Source: a virus
DNA: 24,331 bases
Strand: one strand, 5' to 3'
Virus record (IMG/VR): IMGVR_UViG_3300043543_000209
Span: 1-24,331 of that record
This document shows, piece after piece, positions 1,066 through 22,343 of the stretch (its first letter is position 1; each line of letters begins with the position of its first letter). Under the pieces are notes generated by a model. The model worked only from the letters and a program-made list of their open reading frames with translations, searched no databases and was not told the DNA's origin. The position numbers and the translations under genes are program-made.

Positions 1066-1347
1066 TCAGCCGACCACCGTGACCTTGTACGTCACGGGGC
1101 GGCCGGCGCGTGCCGCGACCTCGTCGGCGTCGAGGTCGCGGCCCCTGTCCTCCGGACGGAGGGCCAGCGGCACCTCCGTCACGCTGGCGGCCAGCGCCGC
1201 CAGGTGGAGGGGCAGCACGCCGATCACGTGCTGCCCGCGCACGTCCTCGGGCGAGGCGTGCGCGATAACGCGGGCGTCGGGGGGGATCAGCCCCTCCCGA
1301 CGCAGATATGCCACGAGCCCCTCGTGGCGGGTGACAACCACGGTCAT
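1066..1347 (-). CDS. csx16: Csx16-like CRISPR-associated protein; candidate viral ring nuclease / anti-CRISPR
   Basis: The 93-residue product matches the Csx16 (VVA1548) family along its length as I remember it: an N-terminal beta strand ending in VTRH with Gly two residues on (residues 5-10), a central His30, the block VIGVLPLHLAA (41-51), and the segment EDRGRDL followed by D-A-D-E-V (66-76), ending in a Y-K-V strand. Csx16 is an accessory protein of type III CRISPR loci, and it has been proposed to be a ring nuclease that destroys cyclic oligoadenylate second messengers. No cas gene or CRISPR array is visible, and the neighbours are phage genes, so a counter-defence role like that of AcrIII-1 is the natural inference. 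Start at ATG 1347 has GAGGAGG nine bases upstream; the longer frame to 1398 overlaps the preceding gene. Recognition is from memory of the family, not a search. Confidence 0.72.
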   Translation of the reverse strand: MTVVVTRHEGLVAYLRREGLIPPDARVIAHASPEDVRGQHVIGVLPLHLAALAASVTEVPLALRPEDRGRDLDADEVAARAGRPVTYKVTVVG

Positions 1348-1725: not shown

Positions 1726-1750
1726 GCTACGCCACATGCGTGTGCGTAGC
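1726..1750 (-). other. Hairpin near the 5' end of the left-operon leader
   Basis: GCTACGC (1726-1732) and GCGTAGC (1744-1750) form a perfect 7-bp stem with an 11-base loop. It begins only a few bases downstream of the transcription start expected from the promoter at 1763-1791, so it would cap the leader RNA of about 125 bases. A role in message stability or leader control is possible but not shown. Confidence 0.5.
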
Positions 1751-1762
1751 GCGGCAGGTATG

Positions 1763-1791
1763 AGAATAGCGCAAGCCGGCTCAAGTGTCTA
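1763..1791 (-). promoter_or_regulatory. Sigma70-type promoter for the left minus-strand operon
   Basis: On the minus strand TAGACA (1786-1791; five of six matches to the -35 consensus) is followed after exactly 17 bases by TATTCT (1763-1768; four of six matches to the -10). Transcription would begin near 1756 and run into the 88-residue protein, the Csx16-like gene, the pentapeptide gene and the ATPase. The same -10 hexamer is found before the plus-strand tail operon at 4526. Confidence 0.55.
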
Positions 1792-2605
1792 GCTCGAATT
1801 TTAGTTTATACAATTTATTTTTGGAGCTTTACATGGGCATGCGAGAGAAAAAATTAAGGGGTTGATATTGTTGGGGTTTTTTGGTTGGGTGTTAAGGGTT
1901 TTGCGCAAATGTTGGCTTAAAAGGCACCCCTTTTTTAGGGGGTAGGGAAAATTTTCTATAAACACTTTGCGGAACATTTAACGAACATCGGACCCCCATA
2001 AAGGGGTGTGTTTAAAGAAAATCGTTGAAAAATCCTTGACACTCCTAACCGCCAGGTGGGGGGTCCTTTATTTATTTTATTAATAAAGATAGATAGATAG
2101 CCCTTGGCGACCCTGGCGTCGCTGCACCTGCATTGCCAAGAAGAAAAAATAAATTATTCACGGTTTTTTCCTGTTTTCATGCAGTTTTTGTAACGGATTC
2201 GGAACGAGCACTACACAAAATGATTTTTTTCCTTAACAAACACGAAATAATATTTCACAAAAAAGCAATAATATTTCAAGATTTCTGCGGTGCGGCGCTG
2301 AAGAAAAATCAGGATTAAATAATGGTCGAATTTTTTGTTTAACAAATGTTATTTTTTTCCTTAACAAGTTCGCGCTTTGTTCTATTTTCTTGTTAAGGAT
2401 TCGGAAAGGCATTGTTTAACAAACCGGGATTTTTCTGCGGTGCAGCATGTTAAGAAACCATATTTTTTCTTTATATTTTCACTTTTTGTTCCTTTACAGG
2501 GAACTGACAATTTATTTTTTTCTCTTGACAACATCACATTCAACAAAAAATAAACGGAATATGTTCTGCGTTGCAGCGTTGCGCTGCGTGCATAGCTACG
2601 GGCGT
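1792..2605. other. Gene-free AT-rich region with recurring motifs; origin/control-region candidate
   Basis: This stretch is far more AT-rich than the flanking genes and holds no convincing gene. It contains a G-run cluster on the plus strand (1858-1898); an inverted pair GGACCCCC (1990-1997) and GGGGGTCC (2059-2066) followed by a T-rich tract; a run of GATA steps near 2088-2100; five copies of TTAACAA (2233, 2339, 2361, 2416 and inverted at 2390); and three copies of a motif TTCTGCG(G/T)TGC(G/A)GC near 2283, 2433 and 2563. Low melting stability plus repeated short motifs, next to tandem repeats, is the usual look of a replication origin or a phage control region. No DnaA-box match was seen, so a phage-specific initiator would be needed. 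Confidence 0.45.
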
Positions 2606-2689
2606 ATGCCGCGCCGCGGCATCGTTATGCCGCATTGCGGCATCGTTATGCCGCAGTGCGGCACAGTGATGCCGCGCTGCAGCATACAC
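2606..2689. repeat. Four tandem 21-bp palindromic units
   Basis: Units begin at 2606, 2627, 2648 and 2669. The first three have arms ATGCCGC and GCGGCA(T) around a three-base centre, separated by CGTT or a variant; the fourth has one mismatch in the right arm. Repeated dyads at two-turn spacing would suit cooperative binding of a dimeric protein to one face of the DNA, and each unit can also fold as a hairpin. Confidence 0.75.
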
Positions 2690-2714
2690 CCGTGTTGTGG
2701 TATGCGGTTACCCC

Positions 2715-2988
2715 GCGCTGTCACAAGTAGGGTGGTTACAATTGTGTATTTGGGTGGGTTAGGCTTCGCGCAGGCTTAAAAAGCGAGCGCGCTGTCACAA
2801 GTAGGGTGATTACAATTGTGTATTTGGGTGGGTTAGGCTTCGCGCAGGCTTAAAAAGCGAGCGCGCTGTCACAAGTAGGGTGGTTACAATTGTGTATTTG
2901 GGTGGGTTAGGCTTCGCGCAGGCTTAAAAAGCGAGCGCGCTGTCACAAGTAGGGTGGGTTAGGCTTCGCGCAGGCTTAAAAAGCGAGT
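2715..2988. repeat. 74-bp tandem repeat, three full copies plus one 52-bp deleted copy
   Basis: Copies start at 2715, 2789, 2863 and 2937, all beginning GCGCTGTCACAAG. The first three are 74 bp and almost identical (one visible base change, GGTGG to GGTGA, in the second). The fourth lacks 22 bp lying between two GGGTGG copies, and decayed pieces (GTGCGCTATCAC at 2987 and 3077) follow. Each full unit contains the perfect 8-bp palindrome ACAATTGT, a -10-like TACAAT, and a GCTTAAAAAGC hairpin. Iterons of an origin, or an array of operators, are the main possibilities. No spacers are present, so it is not a CRISPR array. Confidence 0.85.
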
Positions 2989-3097
2989 GCGCTATCACAA
3001 CTCTGAAAGGCGAAAGCACGCGGCAAAGAGCGAGCAACAACCCTGGCGGCTGAGGGCTTAAAACCTTAAAAGATGGTGCGCTATCACGCTACGCGCT

Positions 3098-3168
3098 GTC
3101 ACGCGAAGCGTGACCGCCGCCCCGTAGGGCGGCGGCCGTTGATGACGCGGTCACATGACCGCGTCATC
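3098..3168 (-). terminator. Three consecutive hairpins at the 3' end of the second pentapeptide gene
   Basis: Reading leftward from the stop codon: GATGACGCGGTCA / TGACCGCGTCATC (3141-3168, 13-bp perfect arms, overlapping the stop), CCGCCGCCC / GGGCGGCGG (3114-3135, 4-base loop) and GTCACGC / GCGTGAC (3098-3114, GAA loop). Together they should block read-through or protect the message end. No T-tract follows, so classical intrinsic termination is not certain. Confidence 0.5.
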
Positions 3169-3537
3169 GTCGAAATCCGCGGCGCCGATGTTGACGGCGC
3201 CATCGAATTTGGCGCCGGTCAAATCGGCGCCGCGGAAGTCGGCGCCGAACACGTCGGCGCCGCGGAGATCCGCGCCGCGGAGATCCGCGGCGCGGAAGTT
3301 GGCGCATTTGAGAATAGCGCCACGCAGATCCGCGGCGCGGAGATCCGCGGCGCGGAAGTCGACCCACGAAAGGTTGCACCCCCGCAGGTCGGCGGCACGC
3401 AAGCCGTCCTTCAGTGCCTGAAGGACGGCCTTGGTGTAAACGGCGCGGATGTCCGCGCCGTCATTGTCGTCGACGTCGACGCTGGCCACGTGCTTCACGT
3501 GGCCGTTGACGTCCCTGATGTCGATGTCGATGAGCAC
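3151..3537 (-). CDS. Pentapeptide-repeat protein, 128 aa
   Basis: Residues from about 46 onward are A(D/N)LRG and ADFRG pentapeptides, a short beta-helix of about four coils, ending in an acidic tail (DFDDDAVM). The N-terminal cap (LIDIDIRDVNGHVKHVASVDVDDND, then a helix ending KDGL) follows the same plan as the 186-residue pentapeptide protein at 408-968, so the two are probably distant paralogues. The start is GTG 3537 with GAGGAGG upstream. The DNA is unusual: besides GGCGCC repeated through the pentapeptides it contains long perfect hairpins, including 11-bp arms at 3404-3428, 10-bp arms at 3440-3461 and 9-bp arms at 3484-3504. DNA mimicry or gyrase protection is known for the fold, but nothing here shows it. 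Confidence 0.85.
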   Translation of the reverse strand: MLIDIDIRDVNGHVKHVASVDVDDNDGADIRAVYTKAVLQALKDGLRAADLRGCNLSWVDFRAADLRAADLRGAILKCANFRAADLRGADLRGADVFGADFRGADLTGAKFDGAVNIGAADFDDDAVM

Positions 3538-4320: not shown

Positions 4321-4500
4321 CCTTAAACACCAAACCCCCAAACCACCCAACCCTACACACAGCACGCCTAACCCCCCAAACCACCCAACCCTACACACAG
4401 CACGCCTAACCCCCCCCTAACCCCAAACCCCCCTAACCCCCCCTAACCCCAAACCCCCCTAACCCCCCAAACCACCCACCCCTAACCCCCCTAACCTCCC
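4321..4500. repeat. C-rich telomere-like repeat tract (G-rich on the minus strand)
   Basis: About 180 bases almost devoid of G and poor in T. It starts with two copies of a 38-bp unit (offset 4340 to 4378) containing AAACCACCCAACCCTACAC, then degenerates into repeats of CCCCTAACCCCAAACCCCCC. The minus strand reads as GGGGTTAGGGGG and TTTGGGG repeats, a strong G-quadruplex candidate; the plus strand could form an i-motif. It lies directly upstream of the tail-operon promoter. No gene is present. Confidence 0.85.
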
Positions 4501-11156: not shown

Positions 11157-12437
11157 ATGCCTGTCCTGACACCAGAGGAGCGGTATCGGCGCATCAAAAT
11201 GATGGTTGACGCCGCGGCCGTTGGGGTTTCGTTGCGGGATTGCGCGCGCCGGCTTGGGATTGACGGGGCGAGCCTGCGGCGGTGGGCCGTGACGTTGCGC
11301 GCGCAATACGGCAGTCTGGACGCGGCGCTTGCCGACGCGGAGCGGCGGTTAGCGGTAATCGCGACGCCGGGCGTTGCGCCGTCGCCACCACAATCCGCGC
11401 CTGTTCTGACCCCGTCTGAACGTCATAGTCTGGCGTTCTGGCGCGCGCGGGCAGAGAGCGCGGAGCGGGAACGCGACCGCGCCGTGCATCTGGCAGAGCA
11501 GTTGGCGGGGCTGCGGAACGCGCCGCTCGATCCGCCGCCGTGGAGCCACGCGCCACCGTCCGAGCCGAGCCGGTCTATTGTGATCGCGCATACGTCCGAT
11601 CTGCACATGGGCGAGGTAATCGCGCCGCGCGAGGTGGAGGGAATCAATCGCTACGATCCGGACGTGGCGCGGGAACGACTGCGCCGGTATTTCGACGCGG
11701 TCGTTCATCTCGGCCCGAAATGGGTTGGAACGGACGCTTGCGACGGCGTGCTGTTGACCCTGGCGGGTGACCTGATTGCCGGGGATATCCACGAGGATTT
11801 GGCTCGCACCAACGCATTGACCTCGACGGAGGCCGTGACCGCGGCGGCGGCGTGTTACGTTAGCGGTATCCGGCAGTTGCTGGAACATTTCTCGGCCGTG
11901 CACGTGGTTGCTGTGCCTGGTAATCACGGCCGAACAACGGCTCGTCCGCCCGTGAAACTGGTGGCGCGGCTGTCCTACGATATGCTTTGCGCGCAAATGG
12001 TTCGCGATGCGCTGCGGGATGAGAATCGCGTGACGTGGACGCTCAGCGCGGCGATCGATGCGCGCGTGCCGGTTTACGGCCGGACAATCGTGGTGACACA
12101 CGGGGATCGGTACGCGAAAGGAGGGCAGGGGCTGACGGGCCCCGGCCTGCCGGCGATCCGCGGCGCGGCGCGAGTGCGGCAACAGGCGGCTGCGGCCGGG
12201 CTCGGCTGTGATCTGCTTCTCATCGGGCATTTTCACACGTCGATGATGCCGGGGGGCGTGTTGGTTAACGGCTCGATCGTTGGCTATTCGGAGTATGCGC
12301 ACGGCCTGCGGGTTGCGGTGGAGCCGCCGCAGCAGTGGCTTGCGCGGTTTTCGGCGCGGTGGGGGTTGTGTGAGATGCGGCAGATTCGCCTCGACGATCC
12401 GCCGGAGGGGGTCAGGTGGCGACAGAAATCGACATGA
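11157..12437 (+). CDS. HTH-fused calcineurin-like metallophosphoesterase, 426 aa
   Basis: All five metallophosphoesterase motifs are present in order: DLH (Asp148, His150), GD (Asp205), GNH (Asn256, His257), THGD (His315, Asp317) and GHFH (His358, His360). A homeodomain-like helix-turn-helix (YRRIKMMVDAAAVGVSLRDCARRLGIDGASLRRW is the span 10-43) precedes it, joined by a Pro-rich linker and a short Glu/Arg coiled coil. The enzyme domain is of the Mre11/SbcD type, acting on nucleic-acid or nucleotide phosphoesters; the HTH suggests DNA binding. The start ATG 11157 is four bases after the HD gene stop and has only a weak RBS, implying coupling. It is the last gene before the terminator. Confidence 0.88.
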   Translation: MPVLTPEERYRRIKMMVDAAAVGVSLRDCARRLGIDGASLRRWAVTLRAQYGSLDAALADAERRLAVIATPGVAPSPPQSAPVLTPSERHSLAFWRARAESAERERDRAVHLAEQLAGLRNAPLDPPPWSHAPPSEPSRSIVIAHTSDLHMGEVIAPREVEGINRYDPDVARERLRRYFDAVVHLGPKWVGTDACDGVLLTLAGDLIAGDIHEDLARTNALTSTEAVTAAAACYVSGIRQLLEHFSAVHVVAVPGNHGRTTARPPVKLVARLSYDMLCAQMVRDALRDENRVTWTLSAAIDARVPVYGRTIVVTHGDRYAKGGQGLTGPGLPAIRGAARVRQQAAAAGLGCDLLLIGHFHTSMMPGGVLVNGSIVGYSEYAHGLRVAVEPPQQWLARFSARWGLCEMRQIRLDDPPEGVRWRQKST

Positions 12438-12517
12438 CGGCGCAGCGCTTGTTAATAGTTGACAGGGACTACGCTTCGTGCTTCGATGTCTTCACTCCTC
12501 CTTTCTCCCTGCGACTT

Positions 12518-12546
12518 GTCCGGCGGCTTTGGCCGCCGGACTTTTT
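12518..12546 (+). terminator. Strong intrinsic terminator
   Basis: GTCCGGCGGC pairs perfectly with GCCGCCGGAC (12518-12541, TTTG loop), followed by TTTTT and further T-rich sequence. It ends the tail operon that starts at 4538. Confidence 0.92.
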
Positions 12547-12548
12547 CA

Positions 12549-12577
12549 TTGTTTTGTTGTCTGTCGGTTCGTATACT
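12549..12577 (+). promoter_or_regulatory. Sigma70-type promoter directly after the terminator
   Basis: TTGTTT (12549-12554), a 17-base spacer and TATACT (12572-12577) lie immediately downstream of the terminator T-tract. Transcription would start near 12584, about 20 bases before the GTG at 12605, and would restart expression into the lysis genes. Confidence 0.5.
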
Positions 12578-12604
12578 GGGGTCCTTACATGGGGGGAGGT
12601 CGGC

Positions 12605-13201
12605 GTGGTTAAGATTCGCAAGGTTCGGGGAGCTTTGCACGCCGGGACGCTGGATCTGCACCACATTATCGAGCACGAGGTTCGCCTAGGGCGGGTTATC
12701 GCCCATGGAGTTCCAACCCCGTTGGAGTTTATGGTGTGGTTGCATGTAATGGGTGAGCTGTCCGGGCTGGTGGAGCATTTTGTGCCGCCTGACTGTGCTA
12801 AGTCGAAGCGGTATATAGCCGCTGCCAGGTCCATAAAACTGCCGTCTGGTGTGTGCTACACGAGGCCGAAAGCGCTCGATCTGCTTGCTGCGTGGGTTAT
12901 GGACCGCAGTCAGGCCGAAGAGGAGCACGAGCGGCGGCTGACTGGTGTCGCCTACGTCAGTGTAGGTTCAAGCTTCGGGTCCAAGGTGATTGCCGCTAAC
13001 ATCGCGGCTAGTGGGTTGGACTTGCCGGTGGAGCAGTTCTATTCCACCGATAAAGCGACGGAGCTTGCCTACCTGGCTCAGCTTCGTCACCGTGGCGACT
13101 GCGTCTCGCAGGCCAGGCATACGTTCGCCGCGCTGATCGAGGCGTTTGAGGAAGCTGACGACTGGATCAAAAGGGTGGAAGCATGTCCGAAAGTCGGGTG
13201 A
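12605..13201 (+). CDS. Hypothetical protein, 198 aa
   Basis: No family was recognised. The product is mixed alpha/beta with several conserved-looking aromatic and His positions (LDLHHIIEHEVRLG, MVWLHVMGELSGLVEHFVPPDC) and a helical C-terminus (ARHTFAALIEAFEEADDWIKRVEACP); there is no membrane segment. An open frame extends back to 12416, but that would run through the terminator and promoter; GTG 12605 with GGGAGG upstream is the supported start. Its last 19 bases overlap the endolysin start, so it belongs to the lysis transcription unit. Confidence 0.72.
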   Translation: MVKIRKVRGALHAGTLDLHHIIEHEVRLGRVIAHGVPTPLEFMVWLHVMGELSGLVEHFVPPDCAKSKRYIAAARSIKLPSGVCYTRPKALDLLAAWVMDRSQAEEEHERRLTGVAYVSVGSSFGSKVIAANIAASGLDLPVEQFYSTDKATELAYLAQLRHRGDCVSQARHTFAALIEAFEEADDWIKRVEACPKVG

Positions 13202-13839
13202 AGCTGCTTCAGCAGATGTTGCGTGATGCCGGGTTCTCGCCGGGACCCATTGACGGCGTTTTTGGCCCTGCGACTGAGAAGGCGCTCCGGGAACTCGTGA
13301 CGACCTATAACAGGCTCAGGAACAACGTCGGCCGTCCTCTTGCCAGTGACTCGGACCCGCTGCCGTGGATGGCACTGGCGAAGCGGTTGCTGTGGTTGCA
13401 CGAGGTGCGGGATAACGCCAAGGTGCGGCAGTTTCTTGAGTCGGACGGCTCCACGGTGGGAGACCCGGCCAAGGTTCCGTGGTGTGGGGATTTCGTCGAA
13501 ACTGTCATCAAGAAGAGCATTCCCACGGAGCCGTTCCCCAAGCCGCTTGCCGACAACCCGTACTGGGCACGTAACTGGGTTCACTTCGGCGTGCCGTGTC
13601 CCCCCTGCTACGGTTGCATTATCGTGTTCTCGCGCGGCTCCGGCGGGCATGTCGGGTTCCTGGCCGGAGACAACGGGGACTACTGGGCTGTGCTTGGAGG
13701 CAACCAGAACGACTCCGTCTGCTATGCCAACATTGCCAAGGCTCGCACCCTGGCAACCCGCTGGCCGTCGGTCAGGCCGATCATGAACCTGCCGTTTGAC
13801 TCCATCAAGGTTGCCGGAGTGACGAAAAATGAGGCCTGA
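13183..13839 (+). CDS. Endolysin: peptidoglycan-binding domain plus CHAP/NlpC-like peptidase, 218 aa
   Basis: Residues 5-45 form a PG_binding_1 domain (LLQQMLRDAGFSPGPIDGVFG, then AT-KALRELV). Residues 58-200 match the TIGR02594-type cysteine peptidase fold: WMALAKRLL, VPWCGDFV with Cys101, HVGFLAG with His156 and GGNQNDSV with Asn174, the expected catalytic trio. The protein cleaves peptide bonds in peptidoglycan at lysis. There is no signal peptide, so it needs the holin downstream (14067). The start ATG 13183 has GGTGG upstream and overlaps the preceding gene; its own stop overlaps the next start. Confidence 0.9.
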   Translation: MSESRVKLLQQMLRDAGFSPGPIDGVFGPATEKALRELVTTYNRLRNNVGRPLASDSDPLPWMALAKRLLWLHEVRDNAKVRQFLESDGSTVGDPAKVPWCGDFVETVIKKSIPTEPFPKPLADNPYWARNWVHFGVPCPPCYGCIIVFSRGSGGHVGFLAGDNGDYWAVLGGNQNDSVCYANIAKARTLATRWPSVRPIMNLPFDSIKVAGVTKNEA

Positions 13840-14062
13840 GAGCAATGTGGTTAGGCTTCTGCCCAGGTATGTCTGCGACGCGCTGGAGCACGTTGATGCT
13901 GTTCGTGCCAGACTTCTTGACGGCAAGGTCGACGGGCTGCTCGTTGTCGAGTATGCTGAGAATCAAGAGGGACAGTTGCGCATCGGCACTTTCTGTGAAA
14001 GCAACCTGAAGCTGCTTGGAGCGCTGACCCTGGCACAGAAGACTCTACTGGATATGGAGTGA
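13829..14062 (+). CDS. Small hypothetical protein in the lysis cluster, 77 aa
   Basis: A short alpha/beta protein: an N-terminal helix around ALEHVDAVRARLLDGK, a strand pair DGLLVVEYAE and QLRIGTFCES, and a C-terminal helix (LLGALTLAQKTLLDME). The plan, a helix then GLLVV-x-(E/D) then strand then helix, matches a common small phage protein found beside lysis genes whose function is unknown. Start ATG 13829 follows GGAG and overlaps the endolysin stop by 11 bases. Confidence 0.72.
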   Translation: MRPESNVVRLLPRYVCDALEHVDAVRARLLDGKVDGLLVVEYAENQEGQLRIGTFCESNLKLLGALTLAQKTLLDME

Positions 14063-14066
14063 ATCC

Positions 14067-14261
14067 ATGCACAACGTCTATGTGAGGCTCCTGGTCTACG
14101 TCATGTCCACTACGCTGACCTGGCTGGCCGCGTTTCTGGCCGGGTGGGGGGTTACCGTGACGGAAGATGTGATCACCATCGACATTAAAACGTTCGTCGC
14201 CGGAATCGTGGCTGCTATCGGTCTTTCGGGTGGCGTGTTCAAACAGTGGGGGGTTAAGTGA
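14067..14261 (+). CDS. Holin candidate, 64 aa with two membrane segments
   Basis: Two hydrophobic segments are seen: about residues 8-27 (LLVYVMSTTLTWLAAFLAGW) and 43-58 (FVAGIVAAIGLSGGVF), with a short charged loop and a basic C-terminus (KQWGVK). Size and topology fit a class II-like holin, which would form membrane lesions so that the endolysin two genes upstream reaches the wall. ATG 14067 follows the previous stop by four bases; the stop overlaps the GTG of the next gene. Confidence 0.75.
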   Translation: MHNVYVRLLVYVMSTTLTWLAAFLAGWGVTVTEDVITIDIKTFVAGIVAAIGLSGGVFKQWGVK

Positions 14262-15454
14262 CCAACTACATCAGCCGGAAACTGCTGAAGCTTCCCAGGC
14301 TGTTCCGGCGCACGCGAGAAGAGCTGCTCGAGACCCATCCGGACATCGTAGAGGATAGTTTTCTGCTTGATCAGCGTGGGCATCCGCTCTCGCACAATGG
14401 CGAGGAGTATCGGCCCTTCACCCTGAACATGCCGAGCCCCATGACGCTTACGGTGGGGGCCGACGGCAACTTTCCGACTCTGGCAAGTGCGCTTGAGTAT
14501 GCGTCCAGGTTCCGCCCTGTCCCCTGGCCTGCTCAGGTAATGTCTCGCATTCACATCCTGGCCGGGCACGTCATTTCCTACCCCATCTACTTGCACAACC
14601 TCGATCTTAGCGCTTGGTACATAACCTCCCAAGCTCCTAGTGTCGAAGTGACTGTCGATGGTTTCGGAGAGGTTTTTGACGAAGTTGCCGGCAGGGATGA
14701 AGCCACGTCGTACCGGGTGTTCTGGCACCAGATTGGAGGCGTGTCCCCTGCGTTGATGACCAAGCTCGTATGCACAATGTCTTCCTGGACGGGCACCTGG
14801 AACCATCTTGGTCCTGGCGGGCATCGGTACATTGGAGCGTTTGTGTCGCAAGGAGTATTCCGGTCTCTATCTCAGAACGTTCCATCTCTTGCGGATGCCG
14901 TGCCTGTCGGTTTTGAGGGGTTTTCTGTTGGCATAGAGGCCCGACACCATAGTCGCGTGATGGTTCGTCACATGCGGTTGGATAACAACAGGGCGCGCGG
15001 CTTGATTTTAGACTCGGGGTCGACCGCCTTCCTCAGCCATGTGTCGATTACTAATGTTGGCAGGCATCCGCTGACGTTGTTGGGTCGTGCTTATGCCGAG
15101 CTCAGCGTAGCCGTGGATTGTCGCCAGAACGGCATTTCGGAGTCGAGCGACGATGTCAACCTTTCCGGGGGGATTCTGTTTATTCGCAACGAGCCTGACA
15201 TCTTCTGCGGTTACGGCGGGACACACGGCCCGCGGTTCGTTTCCGGGGGAGGGGTGTATGACAGGCGCCGGACCGACCCGCCCGTGGTGAGCGGAGCGAT
15301 CCGTCCTGCTCAGACCACCCTGGCCGAGCTGCCTTCGATGCCTGCGCTTCCGGGGACTGTTGTTTATGTGACTGACGGGGATGCTGGTTCGCCTTGCCTG
15401 GCTGTGTATTCCGGCGGAGCCTGGCGTAAGTTGGCTTTGGGCTCGGCGCTTTGA
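14258..15454 (+). CDS. Second tailspike, beta-helix type, 398 aa
   Basis: The start of the spike fold is typical: MTLTVGADGNFPTLASALEY, a helix, then RIHILAGHVIS, and repeated strands with His/Asn/Ser turns (RHHSRVMVRHMRLDNNRARG, AFLSHVSITNVGRHPLTLLG) that look like rungs of a right-handed beta-helix. The C-terminus (GTVVYVTDGDAGSPCLAVYSGGAWRKLAL) is a small module common at the ends of phage fibres. It probably recognises a second surface glycan. GTG 14258 overlaps the holin stop; a GGGG run precedes it. Its stop abuts the stop of terL on the other strand. Confidence 0.82.
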   Translation: MTNYISRKLLKLPRLFRRTREELLETHPDIVEDSFLLDQRGHPLSHNGEEYRPFTLNMPSPMTLTVGADGNFPTLASALEYASRFRPVPWPAQVMSRIHILAGHVISYPIYLHNLDLSAWYITSQAPSVEVTVDGFGEVFDEVAGRDEATSYRVFWHQIGGVSPALMTKLVCTMSSWTGTWNHLGPGGHRYIGAFVSQGVFRSLSQNVPSLADAVPVGFEGFSVGIEARHHSRVMVRHMRLDNNRARGLILDSGSTAFLSHVSITNVGRHPLTLLGRAYAELSVAVDCRQNGISESSDDVNLSGGILFIRNEPDIFCGYGGTHGPRFVSGGGVYDRRRTDPPVVSGAIRPAQTTLAELPSMPALPGTVVYVTDGDAGSPCLAVYSGGAWRKLALGSAL

Positions 15455-16870
15455 TCAGGTCCAGGCTTTTGGGCTGATCCGCTTGGCTGTCATAGTGCGG
15501 CGTCGCTCTTCGATCCGCAGCCGTGTGGCTATGAAGTTGTTTTGGTGTCCCAGAACTGCGTACTGGAGGGCGTCGTGAACGTGGGTGAACCTGGCAGAGG
15601 CTCCGGCTTTGTCTGGGACGTTCAGCAGGTCTCCGGTCTTGGTGCGCCGGTACTTGTAGCCGCGCTCGAATCCCTCGATCAGCAGGGGGCACCCCTCGAG
15701 GGATACCAGCAGTCCCGGTCCGGCGCTGCTCCTTTGTAGCAACCTGCGCTCAACCGCTTGGATGCGGCGCATCGGGTCGTTGGTCGGGGCGGGCATGGCC
15801 GATAGCCCCCACTGCTTCAGCACGGAGAACGCCGAGGAGTCGTCCAGTTGCGACCGGTGGGCGCCTGCTGGATCGCCAATGACGAACAGCTTGTATAGCG
15901 TGTAGTGTTCCTTGAGATAGGGAATTAGGATGTACTCCAGGAAGGCGTGGAGTCCCATGTCCTCGGAAGACAACTCCTTCAGCACCAAGACCCTGCCGCG
16001 AAGGTCTTCCTGGGTGATCACCGCCGCGGGAGTGCGTCCGAAGTCCATCCCGATCACGACAGGCAGTTGCGGGTTGGCCTTCAGCCCCCTGGCGATATGC
16101 ACCTCGCCCTTCCATACGGCCTTGTAGACGGCCTGACCGCCGGGGTCGGAGCCCCACTTGCCGTGAACGTGGACGTCGATCCACTCCTGAGACCGGCCCT
16201 CCAGCAGTCTGGTGTAGTAGTCGGGGTCCAGGTTTTCCAGGTTCTCGGCGTCGGGGTCGAGCCCGCCGGGTTGTTTGAAAAGCTCCCACCCGGGGGGCGG
16301 GTTCAGGACCAGGTTGGTGTGATACTCCGACACCACGGACCACGGGTTGGACACCAGGATCATGCCCCGCCACGTGCGAGGCGCTCGCACTTTAGGCGGG
16401 AAGCGCCCGATGCGGCCGTCGAGCGGCGCGATGATGTCATAGGGAACTTCCCTGCACTCGTCCACGAGCGCGCCGGTAAGGTTGAGCGACAGGAGTTTCT
16501 TCTGGTCTTCGGGCCGGTCCAGGGCGGTCAGCAGCCAGTCTGACTCCACAAAAGTCCCGTCGGCCAGCTTGAACCGGAACTCCATGGTCGAGGTAGAGAC
16601 TTTGTAGTTGAAGAACTCTCCGAAATAGCTTGTGGCGTCTTTGAGCAGTGTCTCCCTGAGTTGCGCCGCGGTGTTACGTACGAGGGCAAAGCGGGTAGGG
16701 CGGATACCGTTCTCATCTGGCGCTTGCTGGACCATGCGTCGGAAAAGTTCCATGAGGCCGCCCATCGACTTGCCTGAGCCCAGCGGGCCCACAAGGGCGC
16801 GGATGCGCGCCTCGCTCAGCATGAACGCGCCGATGGTCTTTGACGCCTTGTAGACAAAGGTTCCGGTCAT
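15455..16870 (-). CDS. terL: Terminase large subunit (TerL), 471 aa
   Basis: The ATPase domain has Walker A GPLGSGKS (28-35) and Walker B LVDEC (Asp137, Glu138). The RNase H-like nuclease domain has three Asp positions: Asp276 (GMDFGRT), Asp333 (IGDPAG) and Asp433 (HVHDALQYA). It cuts concatemeric DNA and pumps it into the prohead through the portal encoded at 17665. The start overlaps the stop of the preceding small gene (ATGA at 16867-16870), and its stop TGA abuts the spike stop at 15454. The gene lies on the opposite strand to the rest of the head genes. Confidence 0.93.
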   Translation of the reverse strand: MTGTFVYKASKTIGAFMLSEARIRALVGPLGSGKSMGGLMELFRRMVQQAPDENGIRPTRFALVRNTAAQLRETLLKDATSYFGEFFNYKVSTSTMEFRFKLADGTFVESDWLLTALDRPEDQKKLLSLNLTGALVDECREVPYDIIAPLDGRIGRFPPKVRAPRTWRGMILVSNPWSVVSEYHTNLVLNPPPGWELFKQPGGLDPDAENLENLDPDYYTRLLEGRSQEWIDVHVHGKWGSDPGGQAVYKAVWKGEVHIARGLKANPQLPVVIGMDFGRTPAAVITQEDLRGRVLVLKELSSEDMGLHAFLEYILIPYLKEHYTLYKLFVIGDPAGAHRSQLDDSSAFSVLKQWGLSAMPAPTNDPMRRIQAVERRLLQRSSAGPGLLVSLEGCPLLIEGFERGYKYRRTKTGDLLNVPDKAGASARFTHVHDALQYAVLGHQNNFIATRLRIEERRRTMTAKRISPKAWT

Positions 16871-21338: not shown

Positions 21339-22343
21339 ATGAGTATCCCTTCCGCTTCCAGCCGTTATCCTGGCGGTACCGGCGCCGCCATCGGGGCCGG
21401 TGGTTCGTACTCCGGCACGTTCATCCCGCAGCTCTGGAGCTCCAAGCTCCTCGTCAAATTCTATGACGCCACCGTGCTGTCGGCGGTGTCAAATACTTTG
21501 TACGAGGGCGAGTTCGCTAACCACGGCGACACCATTAAGATCCGGCAACGGCCGAACATTACGATCCGTAATTACTCGCCGGACCAGGAACTGACGGTTG
21601 AGCGTCCCAACGCCACGGTCATTGACTTCCAGATCGACTATGCGCACTACTTCACCGTGGTGCTTGACGATGTGTATCGCGTCCAGGCCGACATGGACCT
21701 GTTGAACATGTGGACCCAGGACGCCGCCGAGGCGATGAAGGTGCATATCGACCACCTGATGCTCAGAAACGTGTTCCTGGGCGGCGCGCATCCTGATAAC
21801 CGCGGCAACACCGCTGGTCGCATCTCGAACAACATCAAACTGGGGGTCACGACTAACCCGGTCCGTATCGGGTCGCGCGAGAACATCTACGTTGCTGGCA
21901 CCAAGATGGTTACAGACCTCATCATGGAGATGGGGCAGGTGCTCGATGAGCAGAACATTCCCGAGAATGACCGCTGGCTCATCATCCCGCCGTCTATCGC
22001 CACCATGATTAAGGTGTCGGAGCTTCGGGACGCCTCGCTGTCGGGTGACGGAACCTCGATGCTGCGCAACGGCCGGATCGGGCGGCTTGACCGGTTCACT
22101 GTGTATCAGAGCAACCTGCTGCCCACCGGCACTGCCGACGGCCTGGCCGCTAACGAGACCGCCATCTTTGCCGGGCATCCCATGGCGGTCACCTTCGCGT
22201 CGCAGATCAACAAGGTTCAGCGTATGGAGTCTGAACGTACGTTCGGCACCGTCCTGCGCGGACTTATGGTCTACGGTTGCAAGGTGCTTCAAAGCACGGC
22301 TCTTGTGCAAGCCATCGTCAAGCCCGGCAACCTGGTGTCGTAA
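21339..22343 (+). CDS. Major capsid protein, 334 aa
   Basis: The protein follows the scaffold, is strongly translated (GAAAGG RBS) and has the capsid style of podoviruses: a short N-arm (SGTFIPQLWSSKLLVKFYDATVLSAVSNTLYEGEF), a loop with NITIRNYSPDQELTVERPN, a long spine helix (DLLNMWTQDAAEAMKVHIDHLML) and strand-rich A-domain segments (ENDRWLIIPPSIATMIKV, RFTVYQSNLLP). The fold is expected to be HK97-like, as in P22- or HMO-2011-type coats. A strong hairpin follows the stop at 22352. No other candidate coat is present. Confidence 0.88.
   Translation: MSIPSASSRYPGGTGAAIGAGGSYSGTFIPQLWSSKLLVKFYDATVLSAVSNTLYEGEFANHGDTIKIRQRPNITIRNYSPDQELTVERPNATVIDFQIDYAHYFTVVLDDVYRVQADMDLLNMWTQDAAEAMKVHIDHLMLRNVFLGGAHPDNRGNTAGRISNNIKLGVTTNPVRIGSRENIYVAGTKMVTDLIMEMGQVLDEQNIPENDRWLIIPPSIATMIKVSELRDASLSGDGTSMLRNGRIGRLDRFTVYQSNLLPTGTADGLAANETAIFAGHPMAVTFASQINKVQRMESERTFGTVLRGLMVYGCKVLQSTALVQAIVKPGNLVS

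Follow-up and report, generated by a model that had tools for sequence, protein, structure and literature searches.

The csx16-like gene and its phage setting

The window, that is, the whole 24,331-base stretch of DNA analyzed here, is an IMG/VR virus fragment, with the remainder of the genome lying outside the record. At positions 1066-1347 on the minus strand it harbors a csx16-like (PF09652) gene, whose open reading frame starts with an ATG at 1347 and fills the interval exactly. The 93-residue product listed in the first-pass annotation is thereby borne out, with the strand now assigned; a plus-strand reading of the same interval was rejected, as its translation is not Csx16-like while that of the minus strand is. 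A ribosome-binding sequence, AGGAGG (1355-1360, minus), can be read from the sequence 7 nt 5' of the start codon. The product itself reads MTVVVTRHEGLVAYLRREGL...RPVTYKVTVVG.

A gap of 17 nt separates the csx16-like gene from an upstream ORF of 88 residues (1365-1631, minus), for which the search run against IMG/VR returned no relative; the two genes probably belong to one operon. Just downstream lies a gene for a pentapeptide-repeat protein (408-971, minus; PF00805, E 7e-37), and beyond it the start of a MoxR-like AAA+ ATPase gene (1-376, minus; phrog_1297 ATPase at 5.6e-13, along with weak AAA matches), which is cut off by the end of the contig. A repeat-rich stretch of low GC lies at ~1750-3000, and from it these four genes all point leftward; a sigma-70-like promoter candidate upstream of them (1763-1791, minus) is a match to the consensus only. 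A second pentapeptide-repeat gene at 3151-3537 (minus), together with that at 408-971, places leftward genes of this type on either side of csx16.

The region at 1750-3070 is AT-rich (35-50% GC versus 62% for the phage) and apparently gene-poor, and contains 3.3 near-identical 74-nt tandem repeats as well as a 46-nt inverted repeat. It may serve as an origin or as a region of early control. A CRISPR array was considered for the tandem repeats (2714-3000) and dismissed, since the 74-nt units are near-identical throughout and hold no variable spacer. C-rich degenerate repeats (CCCCCCTAACCCC type) are found at 4330-4500, just before the rightward structural genes.

Two phage hallmark genes, encoding the terminase large subunit (15455-16870, minus; 39% to Rhizobium phage RHph_TM3_14A, phrog_2 at 1.3e-19) and the major capsid protein (21339-22343, plus; 56% to the same phage), confirm the phage setting recognized at first pass, as do exonuclease and endolysin-like genes. 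Searches of the 24.3-kb record, itself a fragment, returned no Cas10, CRISPR-like array, Rfam match or tRNA, which agrees with the earlier remark that cas genes and arrays are missing nearby. The nearest isolate, RHph_TM3_14A (61 kb), has no PF09652 gene. Its genome displays many small genes, followed by an ATPase gene and a DUF2201 metallopeptidase/VWA gene; judged by this gene order, the csx16 neighborhood resembles an early accessory region, and the csx16-like gene is presumably expressed early. A MoxR-like ATPase gene near a DUF2201 metallopeptidase/VWA gene is seen in phages at L002:10314-12657, at L044:26620-30091 and at positions 1-376 of the window. An AAA ATPase as a general neighbor of csx16 was rejected, being present near two csx16 genes and not throughout.

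A divergent member of the Csx16 superfamily

Profile searches offer a first level of detail about the identity of the product. It matches Pfam PF09652 (Csx16 superfamily) with 71.7 bits (E 6e-20) over profile positions 2-90 of 91, the gathering cut-off being 25 bits, and the PADLOC Csx16 profile at 2.5e-19. Against TIGR02620, the NCBIfam Csx16 equivalog, it scores only 20.8 bits, below the curated cut-off of 46.35. Passing PF09652 but failing TIGR02620 indicates a divergent branch of the superfamily rather than NCBI's Csx16 equivalog, so that the family match claimed in the first-pass annotation stands for PF09652 and PADLOC and falls for TIGR02620. PF09652 is the sole significant Pfam match, and by sequence the product matches neither a PHROG family nor AcrIII-1 (Crn2). 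Going by its sequence, the window gene encodes a divergent Csx16-superfamily protein.

In length, in its match to the Pfam profile along the whole protein and in its conserved RH, H, G, LP, RG and L residues, the window protein resembles the Csx16 ring nucleases of type III CRISPR systems (PF09652/TIGR02620). Residues common to its clade and to type III-linked Csx16 are R7 H8, H30, G43, L45 P46, R68 G69 and L72; the His, Gly and Arg positions of the family, which the first-pass annotation had singled out, are thus retained (R7 H8, H30, G43, R68 G69). In the alignment, neither H8 nor the arginines vary within the virus clade, with the Meiothermus plasmid copies, which carry TQH instead of TRH, as the exception. 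The segment after LPL.LA, in contrast, reads GAxYxHL in the type III-linked members and ASVTEVPL in the window clade, where T57 is nearly invariant. From the sequences, this swap could change substrate or activity. Differences from standard Csx16 hence comprise this segment, the score below the TIGR02620 cut-off and the position in a separate clade.

This separate position becomes clearer in a maximum-likelihood tree of 38 sequences, in which the window and 30 virus, plasmid and MAG sequences form a 31-leaf clade (bootstrap 93), its boundary being provisional on a sampling with few cellular sequences (three type III-linked). Those three, as well as the proteins of Methanobacterium viruses Drs3 and PhiF3, fall outside it. 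The type III-linked Csx16 genes, from Allochromatium, Aeromonas and Photobacterium plasmids, adjoin cas10, cmr, cas1, csm6 or RAMP genes. Their proteins score 87-113 bits against TIGR02620, those of Drs3 and PhiF3 45, and members of the window clade that were scored individually 20-29. Such low scores of the sampled members may explain why these genes escape annotation.

Predicted structure

An AlphaFold2 model built on a 27-sequence alignment reached a pLDDT of 96.2 and a pTM of 0.84. The top VIA-align match of this model is AcrIII-1 (6scf), with a weak Z of 4.4 and an rmsd of 2.8 over 71 residues, followed by the Cam1 CARF domain and, lower, by the Sis0455 ring nuclease with substrate, SiRe_0806 with cA4 and the Cad1 CARF domain. 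The AcrIII-1 and CARF matches, which would go with a CARF-like fold of a derived Rossmann sheet between helices, are all weak (Z 2.7-4.4), and some unrelated folds appear in the same list; Foldseek of the model against PDB and BFVD gave no match at E 0.001. A published model of cellular Csx16 likewise has an AcrIII-1 homologue as its best match, with Z 4.8 (PMC12409355). The conserved residues of the window protein are located just after strands 1, 2 and 3 of the model and in the loop before the helix at 74-80. If the superposition is taken as ungapped (model 1-90, chain 40-114), H8 would come near the catalytic H47 of AcrIII-1, which we regard as only a lead. A profile search of PDB sequences with a five-sequence alignment hit designed ankyrin proteins only, and was rejected as a composition artefact of the 'GxxPLxLAA' stretch.

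Relatives in viruses and plasmids

Scans of IMG/VR returned 31 loci and then one more; in each of the 32 records the PF09652 match was verified and the ORF is intact, free of internal stops. As five of the 32 viral copies duplicate another protein exactly, 27 different proteins remain, to which the window adds its own. In the core alignment, which comprises the window, 25 virus proteins and one MAG protein, every one of the 27 sequences passes PF09652. No IMG/VR sequence matched patterns built from two type III-linked Csx16 proteins. Among isolate viruses, PF09652 proteins were found by these queries only in the Methanobacterium viruses Drs3 (two records) and PhiF3. Plasmid relatives with about 55% identity occur on pDEIPR02 of Deinococcus proteolyticus and pMESIL02 of Meiothermus silvanus. 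A scan of cellular genome contigs from 84,980 species gave a single match, on a 4.7-kb contig of a Patescibacteria MAG; as the same scan also missed the Deinococcus plasmid copy, which fits its pattern, rarity in cells can be stated only tentatively. With that reservation, the sequences suggest a branch that is nearly confined to viruses and plasmids.

Neither the window nor any of 31 related virus records (fragments) or four csx16-bearing plasmids contains Cas10, while the same search recovered it in the Allochromatium plasmid as a positive control. In this respect the clade differs from Csx16 at type III loci. The carriers of csx16-like genes encode several different terminase families, and the nearest phages found are without the gene, most of those records being fragments. 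Only 11 of 496 pairs of loci have any flanking ORF in common, and when a shared operon partner was sought around the loci, no other gene family proved common to four or more of them. The csx16-like gene is under purifying selection, with dN/dS of 0.10-0.18 in the closest pairs, where synonymous sites are near saturation. Anti-defence genes typically show just this pattern, a lone gene that selection maintains in mobile elements not otherwise related, which hints at such a role here.

Proposed function and alternatives

Retention of the family residues in an element without Cas10 is best read as pointing to a phage ring nuclease that removes host-made cA4, and the near-confinement of the clade to viruses and plasmids suggests that it is probably a tool to switch off type III CRISPR immunity. 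The most plausible function, as far as sequence can tell, would be that of an anti-CRISPR degrading cyclic oligoadenylate (cOA). Taking sequence, structural model and analogy together, we consider it rather probable that the window protein, a member of the Csx16 superfamily, is a small ring nuclease of CARF-like type, employed as a phage accessory anti-CRISPR that cleaves cA4. Upon infection, the type III CRISPR system of the host (Cas10) would produce cyclic tetra-adenylate (cA4), which the phage protein, probably as a dimer, would bind in a pocket of conserved TRH, H30, GVLP and RG motifs and cut to linear products. The cA4-activated effectors would then remain off, allowing the phage to replicate. 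For this particular protein we infer cleavage, cA4 specificity, the dimer, early expression and a type III host.

The clade-specific segment and the nearly invariant T57, together with the gap in TIGR02620 scores between sampled clade members and type III-linked proteins, might instead reflect degradation or binding of another nucleotide signal, such as that of CBASS or another cyclic oligonucleotide; the protein would then be anti-defence, and not, or not only, directed against type III. Some signals are indeed common to type III and CBASS (PMC12409355). However, all family-wide polar residues are kept and the sole characterized Csx16 is cA4-specific, which makes this explanation unlikely in our estimate. 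We give even less credit to a cOA sponge that binds cA4 without turnover. Sponging is a known phage strategy and has been suggested for Csx15, a related CARF-like protein that binds cOA well and is a very slow nuclease (PMC13148439), but the invariance of H8 and the arginines in the virus clade argues for more than binding, and the large cOA output of type III systems may render sponging alone ineffective.

A part in, or regulation of, the element's own CRISPR system, rather than a weapon against the host, seems very improbable: one virus contig, L010, does have a type IV-like csf1-cas11-csf2-csf3-cysH operon ~1.4 kb away from its csx16-like gene, yet 30 of the 31 other virus records (fragments), all except L010, are free of RAMP matches, and neither these 31 nor the window contains Cas10, a protein that type IV itself lacks. 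Scattering of a single gene over otherwise unrelated phages could also be expected of a chance passenger or a decaying copy without function. Intact ORFs in all 32 records, a good ribosome-binding sequence and the dN/dS values leave this with hardly any likelihood. We retain the cA4-cleaving anti-CRISPR as the preferred reading. Its extension to the whole virus and plasmid subfamily is conceivable and rather doubtful: a widespread anti-defence ring nuclease with an active-site segment of its own (ASVTEVPL, T57) and possibly altered or broader substrates, which might have passed on its own, as one gene, between unrelated phages and been overlooked because its sampled members score below the NCBI cut-off.

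Relation to known ring nucleases

Degradation of cOA by Csx16, given as a proposal in the first-pass annotation, was right in direction and outdated in status, since work published in 2025 established a cellular Csx16 as a ring nuclease specific for cA4, with no cleavage of cA6 (PMC12409355). The accompanying suggestion, that a viral copy would be a new kind of anti-CRISPR beside AcrIII-1, went too far. The idea of phage ring nucleases acting as anti-CRISPRs is established, AcrIII-2, phage Csx20 and phage and plasmid Crn4b have been described, and PMC12409355 already lists two phage genomes with Csx16, which probably correspond to the two records of Methanobacterium virus Drs3; viral Csx16 as such is therefore not new. 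The new part is the widespread divergent clade in viruses and plasmids, for which our literature search found no paper.

Drs3 and PhiF3 also encode a PF09652 protein, in the case of Drs3 in a genome without Cas10, but these are archaeal viruses whose proteins, besides lying outside the clade, are nearer to type III-linked Csx16. AcrIII-1/Crn2, a viral cA4 ring nuclease, provides the best structural match of the window model, although this similarity is weak and the two belong to different sequence families in the searches run. AcrIII-2 (a viral SAVED protein) and Crn4b are, similarly, ring nucleases acquired by phages or plasmids and likely anti-CRISPRs, while differing in fold or family (PMC12751052, PMC12830947). 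AcrIII-2 is active in vitro and failed in an in vivo assay (PMC12751052), indicating that ring-nuclease activity is no guarantee of an anti-CRISPR effect.

Viral anti-CRISPR ring nucleases are few, with AcrIII-1 established and AcrIII-2 and Crn4b proposed. Csx16 in viruses previously rested on two database records, and now extends to a distinct clade on at least 33 metagenomic virus contigs, a number near the 36 reported for AcrIII-1 in phage genomes, although these contigs come from a different and much larger collection. Given this breadth, cA4 may be intercepted more often than published work would lead one to expect. About 28 different proteins are available in the clade, and its defined segment may determine which substrate is chosen.

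Several relatives display further features. The type IV operon of L010 (IMGVR_UViG_3300037424_001387, a 64.5-kb virus contig) lies downstream of the csx16-like gene at 12053-15412 and looks complete, with csf1, cas11, csf2 and csf3 followed by a CysH-like gene, the arrangement of type IV-B. L010, L012, L018, L020, L032 and L036 encode viral Csx16-like proteins that are 214-252 residues long; most of them have C-terminal extensions, which match no Pfam family in the proteins scanned. The plasmid proteins of pDEIPR02 and pMESIL02 share the clade of the window protein and the absence of Cas10, and differ in being plasmid-borne and, for Meiothermus, in their extra segments. pMESIL02 encodes two long proteins with an N-terminal Csx16-like domain, of 671 residues (L039:11998-14013) and 261 residues (L049:5989-6774), the latter seemingly with two such domains and encoded between conjugation genes.
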